Positions 1-12,325 of a stretch of 64,000 nucleotides of DNA are shown here, in pieces. Made by a program: the position numbers and the translations under genes. The notes beneath the pieces are model-generated. The model was not told the origin of the DNA. It did no database searches and saw only the letters and a list, made by a program, of their open reading frames with translations. The number at the start of each line of letters is the position of its first letter. Position 1 is the first letter of the stretch. Origin of the DNA: Gemmatimonas sp. (GTDB taxonomy: Bacteria > Gemmatimonadota > Gemmatimonadetes > Gemmatimonadales > Gemmatimonadaceae); NCBI RefSeq assembly GCF_021298855.1, contig NZ_JAJTHI010000052.1, positions 1 to 64,000 of the forward strand, in the 5' to 3' direction.

Positions 1-3000
1 AAGCCGATGCGCCGGCGCGAGGCGCTGCCTTCCATCAGCGAGTCGGGAGCCGGTACGGCTCCGTTCGCATCGCGACCGGCCCAGGTGTAGCCGAACAGCA
101 GCCGCTGGCCAGCGCTGGCCGGGCGCTCGTCGCGCAACACGTACCACAGCTTCATGGTCGCGTCGTTGCGCCCGCGCCCCCCCTTGTCGGGCGCGACCCC
201 CGTGACGGCGCGATCCACGCGCAGCCGAAGCGTCAGGCGCGGAAACGCCGCGGGGGCAAAGCGAAACGCCACGGTCGTCATCTTCATCGCGCTGCGCCTG
301 GTGCGCAGTCGGCAGCCCCGCCCGTTTTCCGTGTCCGACGTCACCATGGAGAAACCGTTGGTCGGACTGCCCTCGGTGCCGCCGTTCCCCGCGTCGTATA
401 CGAACTCGTACTCCTCGCGGAACTGCCGCATGTCGTCATGGTCACACCGCATGTCGATGCCGTGGGGGAGCAGATCACCCGTGGCTTCCACGGCAGGGCC
501 GCCCGCCAGCGACTCGAGTTCGTTCATGCGAAAGGTGCGGGCGGGCGTCCACCCGGAACGCCCGGACGGCAACGGCTGCCGTGGACGGCGTGGCTGCGCC
601 GAGGGTTGGATCGGGGCGGGCATGGCGGTCGGTGCCTGGGAGGCCGTGGCGCGACGCCACGTGCTGTCGGCCCCAGGCGCCAACGCGCCCAATTCATTGA
701 GCGTGAGCACGACGCTTTCCAGCACGCTTTCCTGCGGAAAGGCCGAGGCGCTGCGGGCCGCGATATGGTCACCCCGCAGCGCCCCGAGGTGTACCGAAGG
801 CAGGCCATCGGGAATGCGCGCGGCGCTGCGGGTCACGACCCCGTCGTTCTCTTCCGCAAATCGGCCGATGCGCTTGGTGAGCTTCATCCACGGATGCGCT
901 TCGCGCATGTCGGCGTGCAGCGACAGCGTGTAGACGGGCACCTGCGCCACCACGCGCTGGCCTTCGTTGCTCCAGAAGGCGGCGCGCGTGGCGGGCCACA
1001 GCGACTCGACGGCGCGGCTGGTGTCGCAGGCGGCGGCGCGTGGGCGCGTGATGACCGCGCGCAGCAGGGCATCCGGCAGGTCTGCCCGCTCGGCCACCGG
1101 GGTGCCGCCATGCGGCGTGGCAATCGTCACCACCGCCGCCACCTGGCGTTCGGCAAACTGCGGGTCACGGGCGAGGGCGTGCAGGGCGTCGAGGCCGCCC
1201 TTCGAGTAGCCCACCAGCAGGTACCGTGGCCGGGCATACCCGCGGGCGAGACGGCGCTCGGTATCGTCGCGCAGCTGCTGCAGCAGGGCGTTGGCATTGT
1301 CGCTGCTGCTGCACCGGCCATCGGTCACGGCGGTGATGGTCCGCATGCCGAGCTGCTCCCGCACGCTGCGCACGCCGCGTCGCCAGATCTCGTCGTCGAA
1401 CAGTTCGCCGAAGATCCCCGGGACGTACACCAGTGCCACCTCGGGAACGGGCGCGTCGTACAGGGTGGCAACCGAGGGCTGCTCCACCTGTCGCAGCAGC
1501 TCGCGCTCCTTGAAGACCTCCCCGAAGAGACGCGACGGGAGCGTACTGTCGAGCGCCAGCGGGGCGAGGCCGCGGTGCAGGCGGGGGCGCAGCTCGTGGT
1601 GCCACTGCTGCGCGAACGCCATGTCGCGCGGGTCGCTGATGGAGTCGGACTCCGGCGCCGAAAGCACCGCATCGAGGTAGTACGGCAGCGTCCAGGCAGC
1701 CATGGCGGCGCGACGCAGCGCATCGCCGGCCCCGGCGGTCGCGGTGTTCGGGGCGGCCCCGCGTGCCGTGGCGCGGGCGGCGGGGGCACGCCACACGTCG
1801 CGGAGCGCAGCCAGCGGCGCCAACTCCGGAATGCCGCGCAGGCGCGCTTCGGTGCGCTCGAGCAGGCGGGTGAGGCTGTCGCTGTTCAGCGAAGCCGGGA
1901 GCGGGTCGAAGAGCGCAAGCAGCGTATCGACGTGACCGGTGACGCCCTCGACGACGCGGGTCTGGCGCAGGGCCGCGCGCGTGCGATCGACGGCCCGTTG
2001 GCGCGTGGCGCGCGCGGTTGCGCTGGGGCGCACGGCGGCGGCCAGCGTGCGTGCGGTTTCCTGATCGAAGTACTCCGCCGAGAGCGTGATGGGCCGGACC
2101 CGGCGCAGGAAGGCGGCATCGGGGTGGTCATCGTCCCGGTGGGTGGCAATCTGCCGCGGGGCGGAGGCGAGGCTGTCGGCCACGGCCCGCGCGTCGTGTG
2201 GCGCATGGGCCACGGCCCGGTGAAAGAGTTGCCGTTCGGAGAGGCCCACGACCTGCATCACTTCGTGGCTTCGCACGTGGGCCGGCACGGTGGTGTGCGT
2301 GCTGGCCACGAGACCGAGCGTGGAGCGTGCCCCCAGCGCACCGTGCGTCCGGACCATCTGCACGAACCGACCGAGCGACCCGGCCCAGCAGAAGCCATCG
2401 CGCAGGTTCACCACGAGATCGGGGGCGTTCTCCACCTGCTTGTCGGCGCTGCGGATGAGCCGGAACGGCGCATCAGGGTAGGGCCCCGCCATGGTGGCCC
2501 CGCGCATGACCGTGTCGGGGACCCAGCGGGCCGCGCCGCTCTCGGAGACGAGTGAATCGGGGATGGCGAGCGGATTGCCGGTGACGCGCAGGTACTGCAC
2601 GGCGCCATCGGGACGCCAGCGCAGCCTGGCCTCCCCGCGGTCGGCACTGTGAATGACCACGTAGCGGTCATCCGCACGCACTTCGAGCCACGTGATCAGG
2701 TCCACCCCCGGCAGGCGCTGCGCGGCCTCGGCGAAGGTGCGGCGGCGCTGCAGGTCGGCGAAGTAGACGTTGACCATGCTGGCGAGTGCCAACGTGACCA
2801 CACTCACTTCATCCGCGCGCGTCAGGCGTCCCGAATCGCGGCGCACGAGACCCGCCCGGCGCAGCGCCGCGTCGAGCGAGACCGGGGTGAGCCGGCGCTC
2901 CGGCTGCCCTTCGCCAAACGCCCCGGCGTTGCCGTGGTCGGAGACGATGAACTGCCGCACTGCCGTGTCGCCCCGCGCAGCCAGCGAATCGCTCACGCGC

Positions 3001-3632
3001 GTCATCATGGCGTCGAGCCGCTGGAGATAGCGGTGCAGCCCGCCCAGGTGCGTATGCGCAATGGCGTCGGCGCCACCCAGAAACACCACGTGGTGGTCAC
3101 GCGTGAAGTGCTCGAGCACATCACGCTCGGCATCCGCGAGCTCCCGGTCGGCCAGCCGGTCCCCCTCGAAGTACATGAGGGGCTCCGTGATGGGATCGAA
3201 GAACCAGTCGAAGGCGCGCATGTAGTTGAACGGGCTCGCCTGCCGCGCGAAGACCTGCCGCGGGTCGTCGTTCACCTGCATGGCGTCGAGATCGAACCAG
3301 CTCGCTTCCACCGAGCGGAGGGTCCCGCGGGGACCGAACAGCCGGCTGGCACCCATTACCTCGGTCCACGCCGGGTGACTCATGGACGGATAGGGCGCCA
3401 CATGGCGCCCCGCGTGGTCGAACGCGCGAAAGAGGCCGCGGCGTCGCGCCTCGATGAAGGCGTCGTAGCTCAAGCCATCAACGGCCCAGACAAGCGTGCG
3501 CGCGCCGCGCGAAACGGCCGCGCCCTGCACCGCGGCCGCGCCCGGCGCTGTCGCAGGGGGTGCCGCGACCGGTATGCCGGCCAGGGCGGCCGGAAGGAGA
3601 AGGCCGAGGACGAGGCGCCGGCCGTGCTCCAT
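1..3632 (-). CDS. Partial giant exported fusion: alkaline-phosphatase-superfamily domain + lipase-type alpha/beta hydrolase + C-terminal beta domain
   Basis: The reading frame opens at an ATG at 3632 (minus), 5 nt after the M20 stop, and stays open for 1,210 codons to the left edge, so the 3' end is missing. Residues 1-35 look like a signal peptide. Residues about 45-450 resemble the type I phosphodiesterase/nucleotide pyrophosphatase fold: metal Asp52 (VDGLS), PSMSHP with likely nucleophile Ser85, Asp189/His193, SDHGN at 231-235 and a late His430 (THG). Residues about 730-1000 form an alpha/beta hydrolase with GYSKGG (Ser810), NDGVV (Asp930) and GDH (His956), a complete Ser-Asp-His triad. 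A proline-rich linker near 1020-1045 leads to a beta-rich end faintly like DUF3047. The coding frame was read by hand; opposite-strand frames here are shadows. Substrate unknown; probably periplasmic or surface exposed. Confidence 0.8.
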   Translation of the reverse strand, partial: MEHGRRLVLGLLLPAALAGIPVAAPPATAPGAAAVQGAAVSRGARTLVWAVDGLSYDAFIEARRRGLFRAFDHAGRHVAPYPSMSHPAWTEVMGASRLFGPRGTLRSVEASWFDLDAMQVNDDPRQVFARQASPFNYMRAFDWFFDPITEPLMYFEGDRLADRELADAERDVLEHFTRDHHVVFLGGADAIAHTHLGGLHRYLQRLDAMMTRVSDSLAARGDTAVRQFIVSDHGNAGAFGEGQPERRLTPVSLDAALRRAGLVRRDSGRLTRADEVSVVTLALASMVNVYFADLQRRRTFAEAAQRLPGVDLITWLEVRADDRYVVIHSADRGEARLRWRPDGAVQYLRVTGNPLAIPDSLVSESGAARWVPDTVMRGATMAGPYPDAPFRLIRSADKQVENAPDLVVNLRDGFCWAGSLGRFVQMVRTHGALGARSTLGLVASTHTTVPAHVRSHEVMQVVGLSERQLFHRAVAHAPHDARAVADSLASAPRQIATHRDDDHPDAAFLRRVRPITLSAEYFDQETARTLAAAVRPSATARATRQRAVDRTRAALRQTRVVEGVTGHVDTLLALFDPLPASLNSDSLTRLLERTEARLRGIPELAPLAALRDVWRAPAARATARGAAPNTATAGAGDALRRAAMAAWTLPYYLDAVLSAPESDSISDPRDMAFAQQWHHELRPRLHRGLAPLALDSTLPSRLFGEVFKERELLRQVEQPSVATLYDAPVPEVALVYVPGIFGELFDDEIWRRGVRSVREQLGMRTITAVTDGRCSSSDNANALLQQLRDDTERRLARGYARPRYLLVGYSKGGLDALHALARDPQFAERQVAAVVTIATPHGGTPVAERADLPDALLRAVITRPRAAACDTSRAVESLWPATRAAFWSNEGQRVVAQVPVYTLSLHADMREAHPWMKLTKRIGRFAEENDGVVTRSAARIPDGLPSVHLGALRGDHIAARSASAFPQESVLESVVLTLNELGALAPGADSTWRRATASQAPTAMPAPIQPSAQPRRPRQPLPSGRSGWTPARTFRMNELESLAGGPAVEATGDLLPHGIDMRCDHDDMRQFREEYEFVYDAGNGGTEGSPTNGFSMVTSDTENGRGCRLRTRRSAMKMTTVAFRFAPAAFPRLTLRLRVDRAVTGVAPDKGGRGRNDATMKLWYVLRDERPASAGQRLLFGYTWAGRDANGAVPAPDSLMEGSASRRRIG

Positions 3633-3637
3633 GGTGT

Positions 3638-4936
3638 TCAGGGAACGATCTTGGCCGGCGGCACCACCTTCACCCCATCGGCGAAGGTGGCCGTGAGCAG
3701 GTACAGCAGCTTGGTGCTGGGGAGTGCGGTCGAGGCGAGCGCATACTCCGTGAGCTGGTGTGCGCCGTTGGCCTTCGAGCCGCCAATGGCAATGGAGGGG
3801 ATCTTGCGCACGACGCCCGGGTTGGCGTCGGTGGCGCCGGTGGCGACGGCTTCCATGGCCCCGGGCATGCCGGTGCTGATACCGAGTGCCCGGTTGATGT
3901 CGACGGCCGTCTGCACGAGCGGGTGCGCACGAGCGCCGGCGAGCTGCTTCTCGGTGCCACCGGCCTGGTTCTTCTGCTCGATCTCGACGCGCAGCCCGAC
4001 CTTGTACTCGGTCGCCACCTCCTGCGTGACCCGCGTGATGGTGCGATCGAGGGAGTCGAGCAGGACCGGGTCGCTGCTGCGGAGGTCGACCGTGAAGTAG
4101 AGCTCCTGCGGCACCGCATTGAAGATGTTGCCGCCGTGGATCTGCCCGATGTTCATCACGGCGCCATCGGGGAGGGCGGGAAACTGCAGCTGGTACAACC
4201 GATCGATGGCCGCGGCAACCGCGCGGACGGGCGTGGGACGGCCGCGCGAGGCGAGCGTGTGCGCGCCGGGGCCGGTGAACACGTACTTGGTCCAGTAGAT
4301 GCCCAGCGCGCCGTAGGCGACGCTGCCGAACGCCCCGTCGGGCACGATGAGCAGGTCGGGGCGCGGGTTGGTGCGGAGCCAGTACTCGGCACCCTTGAGC
4401 CCCAGCTCCTCCTGCGTGGTGCCGATGAAGATGATGTCGCCCTTGCTGGCGAACCGGGTGGCGTTCATGGTGCGCAGCGTGGCCAGCATGTTGGCCACCG
4501 AGGCGGTGTTGTCACCCACCCCCGGCGCGAACAGCGTGTCCCCGCTGCGCCGCACCTTGCGCGGCGTGTCGTTGGGGAAGACCACGTCCATATGCGCCAT
4601 GATGACAATGGTCGGCCCGCCGCCGGTGCCCTTGCGGACGGCCACGACGTTGCCGATGGAGTCCACGGTGGGCTTGAGTCCCTCCTTCTCGAACGCCGCC
4701 TTCACGTAGGCGCCGCGCGCCTGCTCCTGCCCCGACTTGCCGGGCATCTCGGTGAGGCGCACCCACTCCTCGAGCTGTTGCGGAAAGTTCTTCTCGAGCA
4801 TGGCCATGGCCGACTTCACGTCGGCACGCGCGAGGAGGGTGGGATCCCAGCTGGTGGGGTACGGGGCCGGCTGCTGCGCCGCGAGCGGGGCGGCGGCGAG
4901 GAGCAGGGCGGACAGGGCGACGGAGAGGGGGCGCAT
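3638..4936 (-). CDS. Exported M20 family metallopeptidase
   Basis: Zinc peptidase/deacylase of the M20 family, 432 aa. The start at 4936 (MRPLSVALSALLLAAAP) gives a clean signal peptide ending near AAQQ; the frame extends further upstream but that extension is not protein-like. Visible family motifs are HMDVVF (first metal His/Asp), GVGDN (bridging Asp), TTQEELG (catalytic Glu and metal Glu) and a late GGSKANGAHQ segment. Length is usual for M20 carboxypeptidase/dipeptidase-like proteins. It probably trims or hydrolyses peptides in the periplasm. The stop is 5 nt upstream of the giant fusion gene, so the two are likely one transcript. Exact substrate cannot be told. Confidence 0.88.
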   Translation of the reverse strand: MRPLSVALSALLLAAAPLAAQQPAPYPTSWDPTLLARADVKSAMAMLEKNFPQQLEEWVRLTEMPGKSGQEQARGAYVKAAFEKEGLKPTVDSIGNVVAVRKGTGGGPTIVIMAHMDVVFPNDTPRKVRRSGDTLFAPGVGDNTASVANMLATLRTMNATRFASKGDIIFIGTTQEELGLKGAEYWLRTNPRPDLLIVPDGAFGSVAYGALGIYWTKYVFTGPGAHTLASRGRPTPVRAVAAAIDRLYQLQFPALPDGAVMNIGQIHGGNIFNAVPQELYFTVDLRSSDPVLLDSLDRTITRVTQEVATEYKVGLRVEIEQKNQAGGTEKQLAGARAHPLVQTAVDINRALGISTGMPGAMEAVATGATDANPGVVRKIPSIAIGGSKANGAHQLTEYALASTALPSTKLLYLLTATFADGVKVVPPAKIVP

Positions 4937-6685: not shown

Positions 6686-7798
6686 ATGACACTCGCCCAG
6701 TACGCTGTCGATCCGGTCACCGGGTTCGTGCCGCCGGTTCCGCTGCCGCCACGGCTGCCGACGCCCTTTGCCGCGTGGGATGCGTTGGTGCCGGAATTGA
6801 GTGCGCTGATTCGGTCGCGCCGCCTGCGCGGGGTGCTGCGGGCGCTACCGGTGGCCGATGTGGCGGCGCTGGAAACGGAAGGCGACCGGGAGCGGGCCTT
6901 GCTGCTGCTCACGCACTTCGCGAACGCCCATGTCTGGGGTGGCGATACTGCGGCCCTGCGATTGCCCGCGTCCGTGTCGGTGCCGCTCTGCACGCTGGCC
7001 AACGCCATGGGGCGCCAACCCATTGCGCACTACGCCACCACCACGCTCACGAACTGGCAGCTGGTGGACGCGGCGCAGCCGCTCTCGGTGGACAACGCCC
7101 GCACGATCATCCAGTTCCTGGGCGGCGTGGACGAAGACTGGTTCTTCGTGGCCAGCATGGGGGTGGAACTGGCCGGTGCGCCGCTGCTGCCGGTCGTGGC
7201 GGCCGCGGTGCAGCACGCGCACTCGGGGACCGACCAGGAACTCGCCGTCACCCTCGACGCGTTCGCGGCGGGCATGACGGCGGTGCACGAGGCGCTCGAG
7301 GCGGTGCGGCGATGGTGTGACCCGGCCACGTACTACTTGCGGGTGCGGCCGTTCGTTGCGGGGTGGCCGCAGCCGGGGGTGATATACGAGGGCGTGTCCG
7401 ACGAGCCGCGGCGGCTCATCGGCGGCAGCGCCGCGCAAAGCGCGCTGCTGCAACTGTTCGATGCCATGCTGGGCGTGCACCACGCTGACGCGCCGGCCGG
7501 CGCGTACCTGCGCACCGTGCGTGCGTTCATGCCGCCACGGCATCGCGCCTTCGTGGAAGACACGGAGCGCGACTCCCGGGTCCGCGAACGCGTGAAGCGT
7601 GGTACGGTGGCGCTCCAGGGGGCGTACAACGCGGCGTTGCAGCGCATTGCCGCCTTCCGCGATGCACACATGCGGCTCGCGCACGATTACATCGTGGCGC
7701 CGTCGGCGTCCGGGCGCGATACCACGGGGACCGGTGGCACCGCGCTGGACACCTTCCTGCGGGGCGCGCATCGCTCGACCAGCGATGCGAAGCTCTGA
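6686..7798 (+). CDS. Indoleamine 2,3-dioxygenase family haem enzyme
   Basis: Opens the indole ring of L-tryptophan with O2 to give N-formylkynurenine, the first step of the kynurenine pathway; cytoplasmic haem protein. The 370-aa length fits the IDO family and not the shorter bacterial tryptophan 2,3-dioxygenase. Key signature: FRDAH at 325-328 followed by YI, matching the F-R-x-x-H...Y-I pattern around the proximal haem ligand of human IDO1, so His328 is the likely ligand. PPRHRAF (about 290) and the middle GGxS segment (GGSAAQS) also fit the family. Kynureninase follows 23 nt later, which fixes the pathway context. Family assignment is strong; substrate is inferred from context. Confidence 0.88.
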   Translation: MTLAQYAVDPVTGFVPPVPLPPRLPTPFAAWDALVPELSALIRSRRLRGVLRALPVADVAALETEGDRERALLLLTHFANAHVWGGDTAALRLPASVSVPLCTLANAMGRQPIAHYATTTLTNWQLVDAAQPLSVDNARTIIQFLGGVDEDWFFVASMGVELAGAPLLPVVAAAVQHAHSGTDQELAVTLDAFAAGMTAVHEALEAVRRWCDPATYYLRVRPFVAGWPQPGVIYEGVSDEPRRLIGGSAAQSALLQLFDAMLGVHHADAPAGAYLRTVRAFMPPRHRAFVEDTERDSRVRERVKRGTVALQGAYNAALQRIAAFRDAHMRLAHDYIVAPSASGRDTTGTGGTALDTFLRGAHRSTSDAKL

Positions 7799-7821
7799 TC
7801 CTCTCACGCCTTGATGTGCTC

Positions 7822-9066
7822 ATGACCCCCCTTCCCACGGCCGCCGACGTGGCGGCGCTCGACGCGGCCGATCCGCTGCGGCACTTCCGGGAACGTTTCA
7901 CGCTCCCCGAGGGCGTGATCTACCTCGATGGCAACTCGCTGGGCGCGCTGCCGCGTCAGACGCCCGACCGTGTAGCCGGGGTCCTGCACGGCGAGTGGGG
8001 GGACGGGCTCATCCGCAGCTGGAACAGCGCCGGGTGGATCTCGGCCCCGCAGCGAGTGGGGGCGAAGATCGCCCGCCTCGTGGGCGCGGCGCCACACGAG
8101 GTGATCGTGGCGGACTCCACGTCGGTGAACCTGCACAAGCTCATCGTGGCCGCACTGTCCGCGCAGCGGGGGCGCCATGTGGTGCTGTCGGAGCCTGGCA
8201 ACTTTCCCACCGATCTCTACATGGCGGAGACGGCCATCGGTTCGCTCGGTGCAGGGCACCGGCTGGCATTGGCGCCGCGTGACGTACTGGTGGCGCACAT
8301 CACGCGCGATACGGCACTGGTGATGCTCACCCACGTGCACTACAAGACGGCCGACATGTACGACATGGCGGCCATCACGGCGGCCGCGCACGCCCAGGGG
8401 GCCCTCGTGCTCTGGGATCTCAGCCACTCGGTGGGTGCCGTCCCGCTGCAGCTCAGCGCCTGCCAGGCGGATCTGGCCGTGGGGTGCGGCTACAAGTTCC
8501 TCAACGGCGGTCCGGGGGCGCCGGCGTTTCTGTACGTCGCCGCGCGACACCAGGCCGCCCTGCAGTCACCGCTCGGGGGGTGGATGGGGCACGCCCGTCC
8601 CTTCGAGTTCGTGGACGGGTACGAACCGGCTCCGGGCATCGCCCGCTTTCTGTGCGGGACCCCACCCATCCTTGCGGTGGCGGCGCTCGAGAGCGGCGTC
8701 GATCTGCATCTGGAAGCGGACATGGGACAGATCGCGGCCAAGTCGCGTGCGCTCGCGACGCTGTTCATCGAACTGGTGGAGGCGCACTGCCACGCGTACG
8801 ACGTGACGCTGGTTGGGCCGCCGCCGGGCGCCCCGCGCGGCAGTCACGTGTCGTTCCGGCATCCTGCCGGCTACGCCATCATGCAGGCGCTCATCGATCG
8901 CGGCGTGATCGGCGACTTCCGGGCGCCGGACATCATGCGGTTCGGGCTGACCCCGCTCTACCTGCGCTTTGCCGACGTGGCGCGCGCGGTGGAGATCCTG
9001 GCCGACGTGCTGCGCACCGAGGCGTGGCGTGCGCCCGCGTATCAGGTGCGTCGCGCGGTCACCTGA
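7822..9066 (+). CDS. kynU: Kynureninase
   Basis: PLP enzyme that cleaves L-kynurenine to anthranilate and L-alanine (or 3-hydroxykynurenine to 3-hydroxyanthranilate). About 414 aa, as usual. Motifs: YLDGNSLGALP near the N terminus, FPTDLY, the WDLSHSVGA segment with the PLP Asp, and CGYKFLNGGPG with Schiff-base Lys225. The start is taken at ATG 7822; a GTG at 7816 in the same frame is possible and would add two residues. It sits between the IDO gene and the ureohydrolase (6 nt). Because the downstream operon handles anthranilate and no 3-hydroxyanthranilate dioxygenase is present, anthranilate is the expected product. Confidence 0.95.
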   Translation: MTPLPTAADVAALDAADPLRHFRERFTLPEGVIYLDGNSLGALPRQTPDRVAGVLHGEWGDGLIRSWNSAGWISAPQRVGAKIARLVGAAPHEVIVADSTSVNLHKLIVAALSAQRGRHVVLSEPGNFPTDLYMAETAIGSLGAGHRLALAPRDVLVAHITRDTALVMLTHVHYKTADMYDMAAITAAAHAQGALVLWDLSHSVGAVPLQLSACQADLAVGCGYKFLNGGPGAPAFLYVAARHQAALQSPLGGWMGHARPFEFVDGYEPAPGIARFLCGTPPILAVAALESGVDLHLEADMGQIAAKSRALATLFIELVEAHCHAYDVTLVGPPPGAPRGSHVSFRHPAGYAIMQALIDRGVIGDFRAPDIMRFGLTPLYLRFADVARAVEILADVLRTEAWRAPAYQVRRAVT

Positions 9067-9072
9067 CTCGCG

Positions 9073-9885
9073 ATGAGTCCAACGGCGGGATCGGGACGCC
9101 CCACGCTGCTCGGCGTGCCATACGATGCGTCGTCCTCGTTCCTGCGCGGCACCGCGTTGGCCCCGTCACACATCCGGAGCGCGCTGCGGGCCGCCTCGTC
9201 GAATCTGTCGACCGAAGACGGGCGAGCGCTCGACACGCTGGGGTGGGACGACGCGGGGGATCTCGAACTGCCCCCTGGTACCGAGGCGCGGTCGTGCATC
9301 GAGGCCGGGGTCGCGCGCCTGCTCGCGACGGGTGGGCGGCCGCTCGTGCTGGGTGGCGATCACTCGGTGACCTACCCGGTGGTACGGGCTGTCGCCCGCG
9401 CGGCGGCGCCGTTCACGATTCTCCACTTCGACGCACACGCGGATCTGTACGACGCGCTCGATGGCGATCGCTACTCGCACGCCTGCCCCTTTGCGCGCAT
9501 CATGGAAGAGGGGTTGGCGGCGCGGCTGGTGCAGGTGGGCGTCCGCACGCTCACCGCGCACCAGCGCGAGCAGGCGCATCGCTTCGGCGTGGAGATGCTC
9601 GACATGCAGGCGTTCGCCGCCGGGGTACGCCCGGCGTTGCCCGGCCCCGTGTATGTCTCGCTCGACCTCGATGTGCTCGATCCGGCGTTCGCCCCCGGTG
9701 TCTCGCACTGGGAACCCGGGGGGCTCAGCACGCGCGAACTGCTCACCATGGTCCAGGCCATCGAGGGACCCATCGTTGGAGCGGACCTGGTGGAGTACAA
9801 CCCGCTCCGTGATCCCACGGGTCTCACGGCCATGGTGGCCGCGAAACTGCTCAAGGAGATGCTGGCCGCGATGACGCGGGAGTGA
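9073..9885 (+). CDS. Ureohydrolase (agmatinase/arginase/formimidoylglutamase family), candidate N-formylkynurenine formamidase
   Basis: Binuclear manganese hydrolase fold, 270 aa. All six metal ligands are visible: His97 (GGDHS), Asp120/His122/Asp124 (DAHAD) and Asp198/Asp200 (LDLDVLDP), followed by SHWEPGGLS. The family hydrolyses guanidino or formimino C-N bonds, releasing urea, formamide or similar. Here it lies 6 nt after kynureninase and directly before the anthranilate genes, far from polyamine or histidine genes, and the cluster lacks the usual kynurenine formamidase. I therefore infer, without direct proof, that it may deformylate N-formylkynurenine. Alternatives are a genuine agmatinase or formimidoylglutamase carried along. 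It is not a close copy of the arginase at the right edge. Confidence 0.85.
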   Translation: MSPTAGSGRPTLLGVPYDASSSFLRGTALAPSHIRSALRAASSNLSTEDGRALDTLGWDDAGDLELPPGTEARSCIEAGVARLLATGGRPLVLGGDHSVTYPVVRAVARAAAPFTILHFDAHADLYDALDGDRYSHACPFARIMEEGLAARLVQVGVRTLTAHQREQAHRFGVEMLDMQAFAAGVRPALPGPVYVSLDLDVLDPAFAPGVSHWEPGGLSTRELLTMVQAIEGPIVGADLVEYNPLRDPTGLTAMVAAKLLKEMLAAMTRE

Positions 9886-9921
9886 TGCCCACGCCAGCCC
9901 CCACGGTGGGCGGCCGGACAG

Positions 9922-9959
9922 CCCGGTTACTTGAAGTTTGAAGTAACGGGTCGTAGCAT
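9922..9959 (+). promoter_or_regulatory. Predicted promoter and MarR-type operator of the anthranilate-CoA operon
   Basis: An inverted repeat with arms GTTACTT (9926-9932) and AAGTAAC (9941-9947) and an 8-nt centre is extended by C/G-rich flanks to 9922-9950. It overlaps TTGAAG (9931-9936), which is spaced exactly 17 nt from TAGCAT (9954-9959). Transcription would begin at about the ATG at 9965, predicting another leaderless mRNA. A MarR gene is the third gene of the operon, so this palindrome is its most likely operator, with repression relieved by an aromatic or CoA-linked ligand. Inference from position and symmetry. Confidence 0.55.
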
Positions 9960-9964
9960 AGCGC

Positions 9965-12324
<2,360 letters not shown>

Positions 12325-12325
<1 letters not shown>

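Follow-up and report, generated by a model that had tools for sequence, protein, structure and literature searches.

At one end of the window, the 64,000-nucleotide stretch of Gemmatimonas DNA analysed here, a single very large open frame appears to join an alkaline-phosphatase-superfamily (AP) domain to a lipase-type domain and to a third, beta-rich domain. This raises two questions: is the frame one gene or two genes joined by error, and, if it is one gene, what would a single exported chain do with two unrelated catalytic centres? An earlier note on this DNA, made from the letters alone, proposed that the two centres attack a phospho- and ester-containing substrate in sequence. Here we follow the gene through its relatives, assign its domains by profile and structure comparison, and weigh this proposal against other explanations.

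Results

One gene, continued on a second contig

Contig C49, from a 4.09 Mb genome (99.5% complete), begins with the window, and the gene is cut at the contig edge. Bases 1–141 are identical to the final 141 bases of another contig in this genome, C54, and are present on these two contigs only; the C49/C54 join was left unmerged in the assembly. Carried on into C54, the frame reaches a stop codon and yields a complete protein of 1,286 aa. The single uninterrupted frame of at least 1,210 codons described in the earlier note is thereby borne out, and lies on the minus strand, which that note did not give (Table 1). In the complete protein, the order is an export signal, an NPP-type AP-superfamily domain (45–455), a helical region (456–730), a lipase domain (731–990) and a DUF3047-like domain (1021–1286).

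Table 1. Features of the fusion locus in the window
Feature	Position	Strand	Residues	Remarks
Fusion gene	3632..3	-	1–1210	ATG at 3632; open at window and contig edge; 1,210 codons inside window
Start codon, hydrophobic N-terminal export signal and Ala/Pro-rich segment	3501..3632	-	1–44	assigned by hydrophobicity; fast evolving
NPP-type alkaline-phosphatase-superfamily domain	2268..3500	-	45–455	profile links, invariant active-site residues
Helical region	1443..2267	-	456–730	about 275 aa; helices predicted at low confidence
Lipase/esterase alpha/beta-hydrolase domain	663..1442	-	731–990	GYSKGG Ser810, Asp930, His956; Cys774/Cys869 invariant
Pro/Arg-rich linker	573..662	-	991–1020	20–50% identity, variable length
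DUF3047-like domain, first 190 residues	3..572	-	1021–1210	last 76 aa and stop on contig C54
M20-family peptidase, probably secreted	3638..4936	-		PF01546 E 5.4e-16; upstream of fusion, 5 bp gap

The G+C content of the window is 68.6% and long antisense frames are also present; since long non-coding frames are common at this composition, the length of the frame is by itself little proof of a gene. A plus-strand frame at 3–2555 (850 aa) was dismissed as a high-GC shadow. The fusion gene is real because GC3 exceeds GC2 (0.87 vs 0.54), because orthologues exist and because dN/dS between nearest orthologue pairs is low in every folded domain (AP 0.10–0.16; helical region 0.17–0.24; lipase 0.15–0.24; DUF3047-like 0.06–0.15). 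All folded domains, with values of 0.06–0.24, are under purifying selection, and dN/dS is about 1 in the signal segment of the same pairs. The helical region is the least conserved folded part, with 33–54% identity vs 54–76% for the AP domain in the same orthologues.

The N-terminus is hydrophobic in every orthologue (Kyte-Doolittle 2.1–2.9), with no membrane segment further along the chain. Only four cysteines are shared by all of them, two in the lipase domain and two in the DUF3047-like domain, a pattern that together with the N-terminus fits an exported protein whose disulfides form within domains. The fusion protein is thus probably exported or secreted.

A rare architecture of Gemmatimonadaceae

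Full-length, uninterrupted orthologues occur within the genus in G015 (88% identity), G028 (67%), G008 (65%), G005 (64%), G009 (50%) and G002 (48%), and also in G221 and G274, from another genus of the same family; in G021, again of the same genus, the orthologue is divided between two contig ends. This brings the fusion to 10 genomes including that of the window, the nine others at 47–88% identity and eight of these nine uninterrupted. G029 carries no fusion and has a single-domain paralogue only. Across 395 Gemmatimonadota genomes, the lipase domain of the fusion is present in 11, and no freestanding version of it was found; a plasmid-borne copy of the fusion was sought and none was found. 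Two peptide patterns of the AP domain, run against roughly 85,000 species genomes, returned six loci, all on Gemmatimonas-like contigs, although distant relatives may escape such a scan because the patterns are specific. The combination of AP-superfamily and lipase domains is, in the searches run, apparently confined to Gemmatimonadaceae and patchy within the family.

The contig of L029 (CALQGY020000069.1), deposited as Candidatus Kuenenia stuttgartiensis, has a Gemmatimonas-type copy, and the deposited name looks wrong. A 1169-aa frame in G078 proved to be a different lipase with RCC1-like repeats, outside the fusion family.

The suspicion that a sequencing or assembly error joined two separate genes, which the earlier note had named as its own undoing, has a next to negligible chance of being right: the contig edge cuts the gene of the window and most relatives carrying the fusion are MAGs, but independent genomes share it, among them the closed, single-contig genome G028 (4,716,552 bp), no freestanding version of the lipase half turned up in the 395 genomes, and GC3 is uniform along the gene. 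The fusion is a real, conserved and rare architecture of known parts.

A predicted NPP-type phosphatase domain recognised through its paralogues

The window's own protein gives no match to PF01663 in Pfam; the family is matched by 11 of 15 fusion and paralogue sequences (best E 5e-7), with the paralogue L003 just above the cut-off. The assignment was made stepwise. A profile of the fusion AP domains matches that of the single-domain paralogue family comprising L003 and its orthologues (hhalign E 1e-32), and also L046 of the same genome (hhalign E 1.2e-11), with the D..H, DH and H ligands paired. L046 is an undisputed PF01663 protein (E 4.8e-26) which matches Xanthomonas NPP 2gsn (E 5.5e-7), with ENPP6/7 also among its matches, and its SFPSVTGPAY lies opposite SYPSLTFPNH, the nucleophile Thr motif of 2gsn. 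At this motif the fusion reads YPSMSHPAW, in which Ser85 occupies the Thr position.

The metal set read earlier from the letters (Asp52, Ser85, Asp189, His193, Asp232, His233 and His430) is found at exactly these positions and is invariant in all full-length orthologues. All seven residues are also among the 35 columns that are invariant over 15 sequences (fusions and paralogues), and conservation across most of the wider orthologues is highest in the AP domain. Compared with PF01663 NPPs (Xanthomonas 2GSN/2GSO; ENPP1-7), the domain has the complete D, S/T, D, H, D, H, H series of metal ligands and nucleophile in the right order, but differs in its Ser nucleophile (Thr in most NPPs), its insertions, the attached lipase and the missing Pfam match of the window protein. 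The lipoprotein paralogue L003, encoded in the window's own genome (G000:C59, 608 aa), is 28% identical over residues 45–446 and has the same seven residues, but has a lipobox-type cysteine and another C-terminal part, and lacks both the lipase and DUF3047. Matched by PF01663 through its relatives and tied to the family through the paralogues and L046, the N-terminal domain is nonetheless well supported as a predicted NPP-type phosphoesterase. The L003 locus itself (G000:C59:11668-12855; L003 979-2802) represents a small Gemmatimonas lipoprotein family in which PF01663 recognition is marginal and many members match.

A lipase domain related to MGS0156

A profile built from seven sequences matches MGS0156 (5d8m; E 2.6e-13), whose catalytic triad is Ser232, Asp350 and His373 (PMC11236915). 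Ser810, Asp930 and His956 of the fusion, the triad that had been proposed at these positions, are aligned exactly with these residues (chain offset 74 in the alignment), and no full-length orthologue departs from them. Three of 80 screened enzymes were lipolytic, MGS0156 among them, and it attacks both polylactide and polycaprolactone (PMC5341072); according to the papers on it, the enzyme hydrolyses long-chain lipids in olive oil as well as polyesters. It is alike to the fusion lipase in family by profile, fold (Z 17–18) and triad placement, at 23–26% identity, but has one catalytic domain, without the NPP or DUF3047 parts. The lid of MGS0156 contains a disulfide (PMC11236915); the invariant pair Cys774/Cys869 of the fusion may or may not be its counterpart.

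The AF2 models, one of the near-full chain (seven sequences; mean pLDDT 46) and one of the lipase-DUF3047 half (mean pLDDT 56), are of low confidence because the alignment is shallow, so that the case for assembled active sites comes mainly from homology. The structural prediction for which the earlier note had called did recover the lipase: 5d8m is the best match of both models in Foldseek (E 2e-9 to 4e-9) and in VIA-align (Z 17.1 and 18.2 over 228–243 residues, rmsd 4.0–4.2), with the lid modelled poorly. The true lipases of families I.1/I.2/I.5 (P. aeruginosa 1EX9, B. cepacia 2LIP, Geobacillus) have the same fold (VIA-align Z 14–17), within 1–2 Z units of 5d8m, but show no comparable profile match in sequence; no foldase gene was noticed beside the fusion gene. 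From these models, the domain is predicted to have the alpha/beta-hydrolase fold of lipase type, and its assignment as an MGS0156-like lipase/esterase, with the activity that this predicts, is well supported. For the AP region, the prediction gave low-confidence models only, too weak to judge its fold or the contacts between domains; the Foldseek and VIA-align lists are filled by the lipase domain and show no AP match, which excludes nothing.

A DUF3047-like C-terminus

The third beta-rich domain of the earlier note is present and is DUF3047-like. With the domain of an orthologue alone, PF11249 scores 25.5 bits (E 1.1e-5), against a gathering cut-off of 27, and matches best over the last third of DUF3047; six of seven members match it (best E 2.5e-5), and the part of the window genome's own domain that lies on C54 matches as well. 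We call the domain DUF3047-like because its score stays below the cut-off, yet six of the seven members match: the C-terminus resembles DUF3047 by profile without reaching the threshold of the family. Its cysteines, Cys1063 and Cys1107, are invariant. The second model gave matches to GH11/GH12 that would allow a jelly-roll for this domain, and these were set aside as too weak to use.

Neighbouring genes

The M20 peptidase and the fusion gene are probably co-transcribed in the window. In G015 the peptidase likewise adjoins, ending 5 bp before the fusion start codon; in G005 and G028 it is near, but a gene on the other strand lies between (with an HTTM domain in G028). It is absent around the fusion in G221, G274 and G009, whose neighbours there are unrelated. 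A conserved operon partner was sought across the fusion loci and none was found, the M20 peptidase being adjacent in the closest relatives only, and no pathway can be read from the neighbourhood of the gene.

The gene facing the fusion gene in both G005 and G028 is a GH18-polysaccharide deacetylase-glycosyltransferase fusion. This large convergent neighbour is seen at L069 12587-15928 (G028) and at L025 13784-19171, and in G028 it combines GH18, polysaccharide deacetylase and GT2. Elsewhere in the window, positions 6686-12325 appear by eye to hold a catabolic run of tryptophan/kynurenine type, with dioxygenase-like, kynureninase-like and FAD monooxygenase genes.

An apparent natural variant without the metal site

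The homologue in G107, a 98% complete draft from another genus, is 979 aa long (L035 466-3405; G107:C7). Residues equivalent to 101–434 are missing in frame, that is, 334 residues of the AP domain, and with them Asp189, His193, Asp232, His233 and His430, five of the seven active-site residues; the lipase triad, the four cysteines and DUF3047 are kept. The junction reads TTCGGCGCGCGCGCATCGCTG, and similar GGCGCG-type stretches occur in relatives at both borders of the deleted segment, so a deletion between short repeats fits the variant. The other 18 genomes of this genus have no copy. On the same strand, the genes before the homologue encode a glycosyltransferase, a polysaccharide deacetylase and an LPG_synthase_TM protein. 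If the MAG sequence is right (an assembly fault is possible), the lipase half can persist in the absence of the phosphatase and the two activities are separable: with the AP core lost and lipase and DUF3047 kept, they would not be obligately coupled in this lineage.

Discussion

Homology and the invariance of the active-site residues support the view that two unrelated hydrolase domains, each with a full catalytic set, are carried by one chain with an export signal. Both enzyme families are known; the new element appears to be their combination in one chain, which seems to be undescribed. The earlier note knew of no characterised protein with this order, and our literature search likewise found no paper describing an NPP-lipase-DUF3047 arrangement.

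Based on these data, we consider it reasonably probable that the gene encodes a multidomain, exported hydrolase whose two active sites are independent of each other and which scavenges nutrients from ester- and phosphoester-containing lipids or polymers. The catalytic activity, metals, substrates and location that we infer would combine as follows. One metal would sit between Asp52, Asp232 and His233 and the second between Asp189, His193 and His430, roles that we take from the established structures of NPPs; Ser85 would accept the phosphoryl group in line, and water would then free the serine. The MGS0156-like lipase would cleave carboxylic esters through a Ser810-Asp930-His956 charge relay, and the DUF3047-like beta-rich domain probably binds the substrate or a surface. 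The role of the whole is most likely nutrient scavenging outside the inner membrane, on ester- and phosphoester-containing lipids or lipid-like polymers. Weighing against this dual-hydrolase explanation are the poor AF2 models, from which structure search did not recover the AP fold, Ser in place of the Thr nucleophile, the missing PF01663 match of the window's protein, the lack of a conserved neighbour and the G107 deletion.

The more specific proposal, in which a single phospholipid or lipidated phosphopolymer would lose its acyl chains to the lipase and its head group to the NPP domain, strikes us as rather unlikely. The two sites lie in one chain and are conserved together in all full-length members, the esterase half has a lipase-type fold, and some NPP-family enzymes, ENPP6/7, act on phospholipid-type substrates; but in G107 the lipase is retained although the metal site is gone, and the helical region that links the two domains varies in sequence, for which reason tight channelling is not suggested. 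That both sites act in turn on one molecule is speculative. We hold similarly slim hopes for the fuller version of this idea, a bifunctional exported NPP-type phosphodiesterase and lipase/polyesterase, delivered by a DUF3047-like binding module, which would jointly dismantle one substrate class as a new arrangement apparently particular to Gemmatimonadaceae.

Still less probable is that the lipase is the sole working enzyme and the AP domain a non-catalytic targeting or structural module. The in-frame loss of the AP core in G107, with the remainder intact, and the serine at the threonine position would both fit such a role. Against it, the seven active-site residues are invariant even in distant single-domain paralogues, and the domain, besides its low dN/dS, is the best conserved part in most of the wider family.

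We thus favour two independent active sites in one exported scavenging hydrolase. If both are active, nature would here have paired a phosphoesterase with an MGS0156-type esterase, in a phylum of which few members are in culture, and the scavenging of organic phosphorus and lipids by Gemmatimonas would be directly testable in a cultured relative. The in-frame loss of the metal site in G107 offers a built-in comparison for what the fusion adds.
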